Source of the DNA: an uncultured Isoptericola sp.
GTDB taxonomy: Bacteria; Actinomycetota; Actinomycetes; Actinomycetales; Cellulomonadaceae
DNA length: 64,000 bases
Assembly: GCA_947497265.1 (NCBI GenBank)
Contig: CANMFP010000002.1
Span: 496,001 to 560,000, forward strand
Direction of reading: 5' to 3'
In this document: positions 7,951-15,696 of the stretch, piece after piece
Position numbering within the stretch: position 1 is the stretch's first letter
How the letters are laid out: each line of letters begins with the position of its first letter
Position numbers and translations under genes: made by a program
The notes under the pieces: model-generated
Databases searched by the model: none
What the model was told of the DNA's origin: nothing
The model's input: only the letters and a program-made list of their open reading frames with translations

Positions 7951-8048
7951 GGCGGCCGACGGCGGTTGAGGATTCCCACAATCGCCCACCGTGAGGTTGG
8001 TACGGGTCGCCACGCTCCATGGCGGGTTCCAGGTGGCACCGTGGACTC

Positions 8049-13065: not shown

Positions 13066-13142
13066 GCCCCGTTAGCTCAGCTGGTCAGAGCAGTCGACTC
13101 ATAATCGATCGGTCGCGGGTTCAAGTCCCGCACGGGGCACCA
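13066..13142 (+). tRNA. tRNA-Met (anticodon CAU, probably elongator)
   Basis: Acceptor stem GCCCCGT pairs with ACGGGGC. The anticodon loop CTCATAA gives CAU, and the T arm contains GTTCAAGTC. The 3' CCA is encoded. The first base pair is a normal G-C, unlike an initiator tRNA, which has a 1-72 mismatch. An isoleucine tRNA with a lysidine-modified CAU cannot be fully excluded from sequence. Confidence 0.93.
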
Positions 13143-13189
13143 TCCCCCCTGCGGGTATCACCAGGCCGCCGCCCGGCCTCTCTTCGGGT

Positions 13190-13410
13190 ATGGACACCGC
13201 ACGTTCCGTGCTCGTCCTCGACGACAGCTCCGATCTCGCCGAGATGCTGGAGAGCGCCACCTGGCTGAACCGGCGTCGCGTCGACGACGTCCAGGTTCGC
13301 CTCCGCGCGCTCACCTCCTCGCCGCGAGCCGGGCCCGACTGCGCACCGAGCTGCGGCGGCTCGGCGCCCTGACCGGCCGAGGTGAGTCCGATGGCAGAGA
13401 TCTGCCGTGA
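13190..13410 (+). pseudogene. Small ORF disrupted by a likely -1 frameshift, upstream of the metzincin gene
   Basis: An ATG at 13190 opens a well-behaved frame (start MDTARSVLVLDDSSDLAEML, then WLNRRRVDDVQVRLRA) that turns into Ser/Pro/Cys-rich noise and stops at 13372. From about 13306 the -1 frame continues smoothly as an amphipathic stretch (LLAASRARLRTELRRLGAL) and ends at a TGA around 13408-13410, overlapping the next gene's start. The switch point is the run CGCGCGC at 13304-13310. This suggests a small protein of about 73 residues broken by one missing base, a sequencing error, or a programmed slip. The family is not recognised and the start lacks a good ribosome binding site. Confidence 0.4.
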
Positions 13411-14779
13411 CATCGACGAATGGATCGAGGAGGAGGTCTCCCGCCCCATCGAGGAGTGGGAGGAGCGACAGGAGGAGAGGTGCCGCGAGGAGGAGTGCAA
13501 CTGGTGGATGCTCTGCCTGAACAAGCTCTTCTGCTGGTTGGTGACGGTGCTGGTCAAGGTGGCGCGCTGGATCGTCGTCACCGTCGGGCGCTGGGTGACC
13601 CGCACCGTGTGCACGATCATCGCCATCGTCGTCGACCTGGTCGTGGCGCTCGCGACCGGGCTGTGGGACGTCGTCGTCGGCATCTTCACGTGGGACCGGG
13701 AGCGGGTGTGGGACGGCTTCGTCACGGTCCTCGGCGGCGCGCTCGTGGCCGTGCTCGGGCTGCTGCGCGTCGGCCTGCTGCTGGACACGGTCGACTTCGT
13801 CCGCGAGGAGATCCAGGAGTCGCGGCTGCGCGATCACGTCCGCGGACTGCTCGCTCGCCGGTTCGCCCGGGATCCCGAGGCCCTCGCAGCGGCACGTCGG
13901 GCGACGGGAGTGGACCACGGCGCGTTCGGCCTGCGCCTGCTGGGCCGGGCCACGCGGACCTTCGTCCGGTCCGATCGCACCCGTCCGGACGGTGGCGTCC
14001 CCGAGCTGGTCCGCTGGCACGAGGACCCTGCGCTCGACATCGACGTCCGCGTGCTGGCCGGCTACGACAGCGAGGGCTTCTGGCGACACGGACGCCCGGA
14101 GGTCGTCGGTGCCGACGAGGGGCAGGTCGACGCCTACCTGCGTGATCGCGGCGGCCGCAGCTTTCGGATCTACCCGATGAGCGAGGGCACCCTGCGGCAC
14201 AAGACGTCTGTCTGTGCCGAGCGGTCGCGCGAGCTGGGCCTCATCTACCAGTTCGTCCTGGACGAGCGCGAGGTCACCGACCCGGCCCACGTGGTGCTCA
14301 CCACGGGTCAGGACGACTACGACATCGACGTGCTGGGCCGGGTCAACGAGCGCGTCGACCCGGTGGGTGCACGCGAGGACCTCCCGACGCCGCACGCCGG
14401 GACGGTCTTCGCGTATGCGGGCACCCTCATCGGGTTGAGCGCCCACCTCGACGACGCCACCGGCGTCGACGGCACGCCGTTCCCCGGGAGCTTCACGTCG
14501 GGGGTGTCCGTACGGGACCGCGTCCCCGACCTCGTCTACGAGTACGTCCTCGCGCACGAGCTGGGCCACTACTTCGGTCTGACCCATGTGGACGGGTACC
14601 ACCGGATCATGTACACGGCGAACCCCGATGCCGGGACGGCGCCCGTCACGTGGTGGACGCTGCCGTCACTCATCCTCGTCGAGCAGCAGCCCAAGTTCGT
14701 GCTCGACGAGGCCAAGGCGGTGTGGGACTACATCGTCGCGGGCTTCCCGACGGAGGCGCTCACGACGCGCGCGCACTGA
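13391..14779 (+). CDS. Putative metzincin-like zinc metalloprotease with Trp/Cys-rich hydrophobic N-terminus
   Basis: A 462-residue protein of two unlike parts. Residues 1-30 are strongly acidic and helical. Residues 31-110 are rich in Trp, Cys (31, 36, 42, 48, 74) and Val with regularly spaced Arg/Lys, then hydrophobic to about 140, so this part could insert into membranes. The C-terminal part carries HELGHYFGLTH (His389, Glu390, His393, His399), the metzincin HExxHxxGxxH zinc site, with a candidate Met-turn IMYT at Met407. There is no classical signal peptide. The ATG at 13391 follows GAGGTGAG. A role as a secreted or delivered toxin/effector is inference; the metalloprotease fold is well supported by motif only. 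Confidence 0.75.
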   Translation: MAEICRDIDEWIEEEVSRPIEEWEERQEERCREEECNWWMLCLNKLFCWLVTVLVKVARWIVVTVGRWVTRTVCTIIAIVVDLVVALATGLWDVVVGIFTWDRERVWDGFVTVLGGALVAVLGLLRVGLLLDTVDFVREEIQESRLRDHVRGLLARRFARDPEALAAARRATGVDHGAFGLRLLGRATRTFVRSDRTRPDGGVPELVRWHEDPALDIDVRVLAGYDSEGFWRHGRPEVVGADEGQVDAYLRDRGGRSFRIYPMSEGTLRHKTSVCAERSRELGLIYQFVLDEREVTDPAHVVLTTGQDDYDIDVLGRVNERVDPVGAREDLPTPHAGTVFAYAGTLIGLSAHLDDATGVDGTPFPGSFTSGVSVRDRVPDLVYEYVLAHELGHYFGLTHVDGYHRIMYTANPDAGTAPVTWWTLPSLILVEQQPKFVLDEAKAVWDYIVAGFPTEALTTRAH

Positions 14780-14803
14780 CGCACGTCGTGAGTGCTCGTG
14801 TCG

Positions 14804-14977
14804 CTACTTCTTGAAGGCGTCCCTCACGTTGTCCCCCGCCTGCTTGAAGTTGGCCTTGGACTGGTCCGTCTCGCCCTCTGCCTGCAACTTCTCGTCGTCC
14901 GACGCCTTGCCCGCGCCTTCCTTGAGCTTGCCCGCCGCCTCTTCCGCGGCGTGCTTGGCCTTGTCGCCGATACCCAT
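14804..14977 (-). CDS. CsbD family stress protein
   Basis: A 57-residue, highly charged Lys/Ala/Glu-rich protein. It begins MGIGDKAKHAAEEAAGKLKE and contains GKASDDEKLQAEG and the closing QAGDNVRDAFKK, the layout of the CsbD family, which is induced in general stress responses; its biochemical function is unknown. A perfect AAGGAGG (14984-14990) lies six bases before the ATG at 14977, which suggests strong translation. The gene is convergent with the metzincin gene. Confidence 0.9.
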   Translation of the reverse strand: MGIGDKAKHAAEEAAGKLKEGAGKASDDEKLQAEGETDQSKANFKQAGDNVRDAFKK

Positions 14978-15071
14978 GAGTGGCCTCCTTCGTCGGGCTA
15001 TCGACGATACGAGCGCCAGCGTGTCGTCGCACCCGGGACATCGGCTGTCCGGCGGCCGCTACCGTGGCCCC

Positions 15072-15587
15072 ATGTTCTCGCGCCGCCGACAGCTCACGCC
15101 CGCCGCCCGCCGTGCCGTCCCCGTCCGGGGAGGCGAACGGCACCTGGCAGCGGCCGAGCTGGCCGACGGCGGCCGGGCCGTGGCGACGACGGCGAGCCTG
15201 GCGGTCGTCAGCGGCGGCGACGACGCTCTGCTGACGCTGCGGCGCCCGTGGTGCGACGTCGACCGGGCGGCGTTCGACCCGGAGCGGTCGGTGCTGACGG
15301 TGGAGTGGGTCGACGCCGAGCCCGACCTGCGCCTGCAGATGATCGACCCGACGGTGACCGACCTTCCCGCCGTCCTGCACGAACGCGTCCTGTGGTCCGT
15401 CGTCCTGGCCGAGACCGTGGACGTGCCGGGCGGTCGGGTGAAGGTGGCGGTGCGGCGCCGGCCCGACGGCTCGCTGTTCTCCCAGGCGCTCGCCGAGGAG
15501 GGTGTCGACCTCGCCCGGCCGGAGATCGCCCACGTGGTGAACGCCACCGAGTCCAACCTGCGGGGTGCGTGCGGACTACCCCTGTGA
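15072..15587 (+). CDS. Conserved hypothetical protein (171 aa)
   Basis: A small soluble protein with a basic N-terminus (MFSRRRQLTPAARRA) and alternating beta-strand-like stretches ending in EIAHVVNATESNLRGACGLPL. No membrane segment or catalytic motif is seen. Its size and layout resemble short actinobacterial proteins often annotated as hypothetical, but no family name is claimed. The ATG at 15072 is the first that leaves the upstream CsbD promoter region free. It ends 29 bases before tRNA-Asn. Confidence 0.7.
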   Translation: MFSRRRQLTPAARRAVPVRGGERHLAAAELADGGRAVATTASLAVVSGGDDALLTLRRPWCDVDRAAFDPERSVLTVEWVDAEPDLRLQMIDPTVTDLPAVLHERVLWSVVLAETVDVPGGRVKVAVRRRPDGSLFSQALAEEGVDLARPEIAHVVNATESNLRGACGLPL

Positions 15588-15616
15588 ACCTGGTATTGTT
15601 TTCTCCGGTTCGCCGA

Positions 15617-15689
<73 letters not shown>

Positions 15690-15696
15690 CACCAGA

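Follow-up and report, generated by a model that had tools for sequence, protein, structure and literature searches.

The window analysed here, a stretch of 64,000 nucleotides from the 3.77-Mb actinobacterial genome of an Isoptericola species, carries one copy of a two-gene module in which a metzincin-type protease with a Trp- and Cys-rich N-terminus is encoded beside a small partner protein of fixed pattern. A literature search that included the motif strings did not find this protease-partner pair described, and within the libraries and literature searched the module is supported as undescribed and unnamed. Our main reading, to which we assign a probability of roughly 0.4, is that the module moves horizontally and combines a membrane protease with a dedicated membrane protein that would neutralise or regulate it.

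Arrangement of the locus

In the window the module lies directly 3′ of a tRNA-Met gene (anticodon cat; 13066..13142, forward strand; ARAGORN), which follows the def gene and holds the same place in both further Isoptericola carriers (L098 and L101). The remains of the small partner gene occupy 13190..13410 (forward), as recognised by a profile of the partner family and by DNA alignment with the loci of I. halotolerans (L078) and I. chiayiensis (L079). The gene for the metzincin-type, probably membrane-associated protease of 462 amino acids extends over 13391..14779 (forward), an assignment based on the open reading frame, its close copies and the ATG at 13391, which is conserved in relatives; a GTG at 13382 is the alternative start, and the end at 14779 is common to both. 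The closest copies in the genus are 89% identical and, for the one interrupted by a TAG, 85% identical. A gene outside the module, placed from its sequence at 14804..14977 on the reverse strand, marks the right boundary and is probably CsbD-like. In two genomes of the genus that lack the pair (L099 and L103) the CsbD-like counterpart lies within about 110 bases of the tRNA with nothing between them, and in the other 13 genus genomes the right-hand neighbour of the tRNA differs or was not identified. The region to the right of the tRNA-Met (13066-15690 in the window) is variable within the genus and holds other small ORFs in some genomes.

A conserved two-gene pair

A scan of the genome_contigs collection (84,980 species) with two short peptide patterns returned 107 stretches, 19 of which are relatives; together with the window, a genome of the same family (G028) and two further loci (L130 and L132), these make up the 23 loci considered here. 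They comprise three from the genus Isoptericola, 13 from Micromonosporaceae, two from Nocardia, one from a Nocardioidaceae MAG, that of G028, one from a cyanobacterium and two from Rhodobacteraceae. The earlier note had staked its proposal on a small gene being kept beside homologues of the protease, and such a gene is present in 23/23 loci on one side or the other, the broken copy of the window counted. The partner is upstream in 17 loci and downstream in six (L086, L087, L090, L093, L132 and G028), and the link between the two genes thus outlives their order. In Isoptericola, the Nocardioidaceae MAG and G028 one gene runs into the other; a gap of 4-30 bases separates them in Micromonospora, Nocardia and the cyanobacterium, and one of about 150-190 bases in the two Rhodobacteraceae. 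Intact-looking partners are encoded at 21 of the 23 loci, the exceptions being the window and L094, the latter lacking an in-frame start; the proteases that are not whole are those of L079 (one TAG) and L094 (169 aa).

Two types of metzincin carry the Trp/Cys N-terminus. The long type, with the signature HELGHxxGLxHxDGxxRIMY, accounts for the majority of copies, and the shorter type is found in the two Rhodobacteraceae and G028. The window protease and that of L093 are 63% identical over the N-terminus and 23% over the remainder. At one locus of genome G002 (L007), a metzincin without the Trp/Cys N-terminus matches a portion of the G028 metzincin at 41% identity, and a partner was not found in its neighbourhood. 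Since two metzincin types carry the N-terminus and L007 lacks both N-terminus and partner, we read the partner as probably going with the N-terminus rather than with one type of metzincin, a reading that depends on a single negative locus. The L007 protein (L037, 7064-7939) has a Lys/Arg/Ala-rich start, which may represent a second, membrane- or nucleic-acid-binding version.

Other searches delimit the membership. With the N-terminus as query, 7/396 genomes of the phylum were matched, the window's own genome convincingly and six weakly (E 1.4e-4 to 0.005). The query L004 matched 34/396 genomes, consisting of three genus members recognised by their N-terminus, G002 (L007) and 30 others; these 30 were dropped, the 26 inspected having the look of ordinary exported or anchored metzincins. 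The weak, partial hits L005 and L006 were not taken as members.

The zinc site and catalytic domain

The long ORF with a metzincin-like motif that the earlier note had picked out is real: HELGHYFGLTH occupies residues 389-399 (14555..14587, forward), and IMYT is also in place. Across the aligned proteases, H389, E390, G392, H393, L397 and H399 are invariant (20/20 rows) and G396 is conserved in at least 90%, a pattern that fits the HExxHxxGxxH zinc site of metzincins. Behind the motif, M407 (14609..14611, forward) is conserved in at least 90% of the same 20 rows, and presumably serves as the Met-turn methionine known from metzincins. Alignment A7 omits L079 and L094, which are broken, and alignment A8 omits L094.

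Beyond the motif, likeness to known families is slight. Pfam recognises the zinc-site stretch alone, with Peptidase_M57 at 21.5 bits against a gathering cut-off of 21 and matrixin (M10) below its cut-off (21.3 vs 24), and sequences in the PDB match over about 40 residues, the best being MMP-1 at E 7.6e-5. The AlphaFold2 model of the protease has a mean pLDDT of 63.2, with values mostly below 50 in the zinc domain (residues 317-437). Compared with matrixins (M10), fragilysin and Peptidase_M57, the protease has in common HExxHxxGxxH and the conserved Met and gives weak profile matches; it differs in that the detected likeness covers only about 30-60 residues, in having the Trp/Cys N-terminus and a dedicated membrane partner, and in lacking, by eye, a signal peptide.

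The N-terminal region of the protease

The best conserved part of the protease is its N-terminus (13391..13792, forward), a region that probably is membrane-bound as judged from an 11-row alignment, hydropathy and moments, and the AlphaFold2 model. Its richness in Trp, Arg and Cys, remarked on in the earlier note, is confirmed. The cysteines listed there (31, 36, 42, 48 and 74) are correctly placed, although Cys5 had been missed; Cys 5, 31, 48 and 74 do not vary among the 11 aligned rows, of which the window is one. The region is composed of an acidic helix (residues 2-33), a long amphipathic Trp/Cys/Arg helix (43-100) and a hydrophobic helix (103-128), and the model renders helices at 2-33, 43-100, 103-128 and 131-157 with ten-residue pLDDT means of 60-86. 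Residues ~50-75 are strongly amphipathic and parts of 67-137 are hydrophobic by hydropathy and moment calculations, from which we conclude that the N-terminus probably lies in or on the membrane. Inspection by eye agrees that the protease has no signal peptide. An ordinary housekeeping membrane domain, the outcome that would have undercut the original proposal, is disfavoured, as the N-terminus matched no known domain of that kind in Pfam or NCBIfam.

Within this region, residues 82-113 (13634..13729, forward) form a tape-measure-like stretch, delineated by PHROG and viral matches with a shuffled control. Residues ~82-113 match one viral protein with pairwise E-values of 4e-6 (window) and 6e-7 (cyanobacterium), although these values are flattered because the viral protein was picked from a large scan. 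In the viral collection two of six stretches bearing the pattern are relatives (32 residues, 63% and 56%), and both belong to tape-measure proteins according to PHROGs (E 1e-160 and 2e-34); apart from this short match, searches of viral contigs gave no relative. Tape-measure PHROGs, counted at E up to 1, were matched by 5/10 real segments (best E 0.0064) vs 0/10 shuffles, the ten shuffles deriving from five of the ten parent segments, and phrog_1535 was matched by 6/20 full proteins (best E 0.0027). PHROG families of any kind were matched by 9/10 real segments and 2/10 shuffles, and the window's own segment gave no tape-measure PHROG match. We regard the tape-measure resemblance as a weak lead.

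That lead suggests a quite unlikely role in phage defence at the injection site, in which the tape-measure-like stretch would meet the incoming tape-measure protein, the metzincin would cut that protein or other injected ones, and the partner would restrain or position the protease. The excess over shuffled segments and the two viral tape-measure relatives speak for such a role. So does the precedent of SNIPE, a membrane-bound nuclease reported to act where phages inject and to associate with tape-measure proteins (PMC13190303). Against it, the E-values are weak, a 32-residue match may reflect a shared membrane-helix pattern, the real segments also match families other than tape measures, and the window segment matches no tape-measure family. 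A comparison of five proteins with the anti-phage systems of PADLOC-DB gave capP as the sole match (E 0.034, residues 353-399 of the window protease), and a single restriction-type methylase was present among 20 scanned neighbours. SNIPE itself is alike in being a membrane-tethered enzyme with a possible tape-measure link, but in the same account it is a nuclease with other domains (DUF4041) and no metzincin (PMC13190303).

The same resemblance could mean that the N-terminus loads the protease into the tube of a contractile particle, with the partner as immunity protein, a proposal we consider highly improbable. A study of actinobacterial contractile systems does describe tape-measure-like effectors, one of them followed by an immunity gene (PMC13277306), and a tube gene is present in the genome of the window (G000:C13:76415-76843; PF06841, E 3.5e-42). 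However, that gene is on another contig, of the 12 carriers searched for a tube gene (PF06841) four gave one and eight did not, and tail genes were not seen among the shared ORFs or the 20 scanned neighbours. The Sle1-type effectors resemble the present proteins in their tape-measure relationship, a predicted membrane hairpin and, in one case, an immunity gene, but they are encoded in contractile clusters, whereas no cluster was seen at the loci here (PMC13277306). More generally, the idea of a delivered effector, raised in the earlier note, is not supported: a signal peptide is not apparent by eye, secretion or tail genes were not seen among the shared ORFs or the 20 neighbours, and 4/12 carriers gave a tube gene.

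The partner family and its broken copy

The partner follows a fixed pattern, CGC-TM-TM-GK..G, in which C-G-C, one K and one G are invariant in 19/19 aligned copies; its N-terminal part is loosely conserved and missing from both Nocardia copies. That the partner is a chance ORF was rejected on the strength of this invariance and of its adjacency to the protease gene throughout the 23 loci. Local alignments of the most distant partner, that of G028 (L040:6585-6926, reverse strand), with two others beat 998 and 1000 of 1000 shuffles. The model of the L078 partner (mean pLDDT 83) consists of a small strand-helix-strand-helix part followed by CGC at 60-62, a helix at 62-82 and a long helix at 90-134; in a Foldseek comparison with solved structures 0/86 matches reached E <=0.001. 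Two partners scanned against Pfam had a best E of 3.8, with no known small-membrane-protein family emerging, the best match to PDB sequences was at E 0.21, and the best PHROG match of two partners scanned was a weak one of the G028 partner to phrog_16692 (function not known; E 0.0026). The viral tape-measure protein mentioned above also matches this family, over a different part, which we likewise take as no more than a lead. A partner search of 200 genomes of the family returned 28 at E 0.01 including the query G028, the best of the other 27 raw matches being G888 (E 2.8e-5). The partner profile gave two matches in 296 genomes of the class, the window remnant and G1076, of which G1076 was rejected by eye as an unrelated small membrane protein; two additional ORFs that fit the partner pattern (L078, 4142-4456; L087, 7753-7911) were likewise dropped as unrelated.

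For the window, the earlier note had described a small disrupted partner upstream of the protease, and the small ORF at 13190-13372 (60 aa) is indeed the remnant of a real gene. The cause it gave, a frame switch at a CGCGCGC run, is rejected, since comparison with the intact genes of L078 and L079 reveals that 196 aligned bases are missing from the window. The loss sits mid-gene a few bases past the run, with the junction at ~13315/13316, and corresponds to about codons 43-107 of the L078 partner. What is left is a reading frame of the first ~42 codons and a 3′ remnant in another frame whose end at 13410 lies within the protease gene by 20 bases, like that of intact relatives; the deletion has removed the CGC motif, all of the first predicted TM segment and most of the second one, and the partner profile matches the remnant at positions 3-39 only. 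The intact partner of L078 (2367-2783) has 138 aa and that of L079 (7601-8020) has 139 aa, and both genes run into the start of the protease gene.

Constraint and decay

Within Isoptericola the protease has evolved under constraint, with a dN/dS of 0.12-0.13 (0.127 for the window vs L078), and the partner has changed fast, with a dN/dS of 0.637 (L078 vs L079), a difference in favour of the main reading. Two pairs of Micromonospora speak against it, as their partners evolve little faster than the proteases (0.34 vs 0.31 and 0.47 vs 0.38). Since their split, the protease has accumulated 14 nonsynonymous and 35 synonymous changes on the window branch vs 8 and 40 on the I. halotolerans branch, and relaxation on the window branch is not significant (Fisher p 0.23). 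An intact and constrained protease beside a broken partner implies either that the partner is not strictly needed there or that the protease is silent. For a toxin/immunity pair one would look for the cognate gene to be adjacent, which is the case at 23/23 loci, and for immunity to be kept wherever the toxin is intact, which the window contradicts; the unpaired window protease thus speaks against toxin and immunity being strictly tied together, provided that it is not silent. In mirror-tree comparisons with the partner, the N-terminus (r 0.666) and the rest of the protease (r 0.668) perform alike, and the N-terminus is therefore not favoured as the partner contact.

The module is broken in 3/23 loci, namely the window, L079 and L094. 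In I. chiayiensis (L003/L079) the protease reading frame, which begins at 8001, meets a TAG after 59 codons and the partner is intact, a mirror image of the window, although the TAG could be a sequencing error. In Micromonospora qiuiae (L094, 7688-8510) both genes look decayed, the protease being shortened by internal loss.

These patterns bear on an unlikely alternative in which the small protein is the substrate of the protease and the real effector, cleavage releasing or activating a membrane-damaging two-helix peptide. Gasdermin-protease pairs provide a model for a cleavage-activated membrane effector. The partner would suit this role as a small, two-helix membrane protein that changes rapidly in Isoptericola and is found beside the protease at every locus, and the state of the window, where the protease is kept and the membrane part of the partner is lost, would be safe. 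Yet the partner, whose N-terminal part is loosely conserved and absent from the two Nocardia copies, shows no inhibitory segment or site of cleavage that is conserved, and in I. chiayiensis it is the protease that is broken and the small gene that is kept.

Distribution and apparent transfer between phyla

The pair was found in 3/18 genomes of the genus and, with the centre genomes included, in 6/180 Micromonosporaceae, 2/129 Rhodobacteraceae and 1/214 cyanobacteria. These hits overlap with the 19 relatives from the scan, in that 5/6 of the Micromonosporaceae hits and 1/2 of the Rhodobacteraceae hits are among the latter, three of the five being recognised by protein match to L085, L091 or L096. 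In a tree that includes L130 and L132 and omits L004, L007, L079 and L094, the cyanobacterial protease clusters with L130 from Micromonosporaceae (85/74) next to Nocardia (93/95), and this grouping sits inside a Micromonosporaceae-Nocardia clade (99/98). The cyanobacterial and Nocardia copies are 76% identical in the N-terminus and 69% in the rest, and the cyanobacterial gene agrees in GC content with its surroundings (0.435 vs 0.444 and 0.413). The nesting of the cyanobacterial copy among actinobacterial ones implies transfer between phyla, and the module thus appears to have moved horizontally. Carriage on plasmids was rejected as plasmid searches gave no match, and carriage by phage as no match was convincing (one at E 4).

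By BLAST of the ORFs of 20 loci, no ORFs are shared across groups as widely as the protease and the partner; besides these, loci have in common a DUF305 gene and some scattered pairs, most of them between Micromonospora and Nocardia. The DUF305-like gene, of which the L096 copy was scanned, is found close to the module in G028 (L040, 8493-9152) and in two Micromonosporaceae, L092 (6655-7323) and L096 (6748-7416), possibly by chance. Twenty neighbours scanned out of 132 ORFs at 12 loci are mostly metabolic, and include one N6-methylase (restriction-type), one RecD2-like helicase, one GIY-YIG protein and five without a family.

The metabolic neighbourhood, the constraint on the Isoptericola protease and the lack by eye of an export signal would fit ordinary physiology, with the protease acting in membrane-protein processing or quality control and the small protein as a scaffold subunit. 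However, the patchy occurrence within the genus and in Micromonosporaceae, the apparent transfer across phyla and the broken state of three loci all make such a role rather improbable.

Proposed mechanism and related systems

The main reading, that of a mobile membrane protease with its own membrane neutraliser or regulator, can be set out as follows. Without a signal peptide, the protease would be held at the membrane by an N-terminus lodged in or on it, which would also keep the C-terminal metzincin there. In the partner, the invariant CGC would open the first predicted membrane helix, to be followed by a second helix carrying GK..G together with a basic tail, and both ends of the protein probably face the cytoplasm. 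The partner would bind the protease N-terminus in the membrane and keep the protease inactive or harmless until needed, whichever target it may have, and the setting may be one of conflict between bacteria or of phage defence. The CGC cysteines may reach the catalytic zinc, and are thus candidates for a cysteine switch supplied in trans. A very unlikely elaboration of this scheme would have a tape-measure-like anchor carry interchangeable metzincins to membrane sites breached by phages or contractile particles, under the control of a CGC protein that recognises the anchor instead of the enzyme and possibly acts as the trans cysteine switch.

Several known systems are similar in part. In SpoIVFB/BofA, as in our proposal, a small membrane protein holds a membrane metalloprotease, but SpoIVFB is an intramembrane protease of the S2P type that functions in sporulation, and the systems are likened by description rather than by sequence (PMC9042235). 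The polymorphic toxins Tox-MPTase1-5 also join a metallopeptidase domain to other parts in a conflict setting; they are described as typically joined to RHS repeats, which sets them apart from the short N-terminus and CGC partner found here (PMC3482391). Pairs of MPTase and FxSxx-COOH proteins likewise match a zincin with a small, rapidly diverging neighbour, but in those pairs the small protein serves as the substrate, and they accompany NTP-dependent conflict systems (PMC7159879).

Significance

The Trp/Cys N-terminus together with a CGC-TM-TM-GK..G partner provides a membership test for the module, and by this combination members are present in three phyla here. The three carriers in the genus, with an intact pair, a broken partner and an interrupted protease, respectively, constitute a natural experiment on the mutual dependence of the two genes. 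More broadly, the module may serve as a test case for the control of a metzincin by a small membrane protein, and for whether bacterial conflict systems have put tape-measure-like segments to new use as membrane anchors of enzymes.
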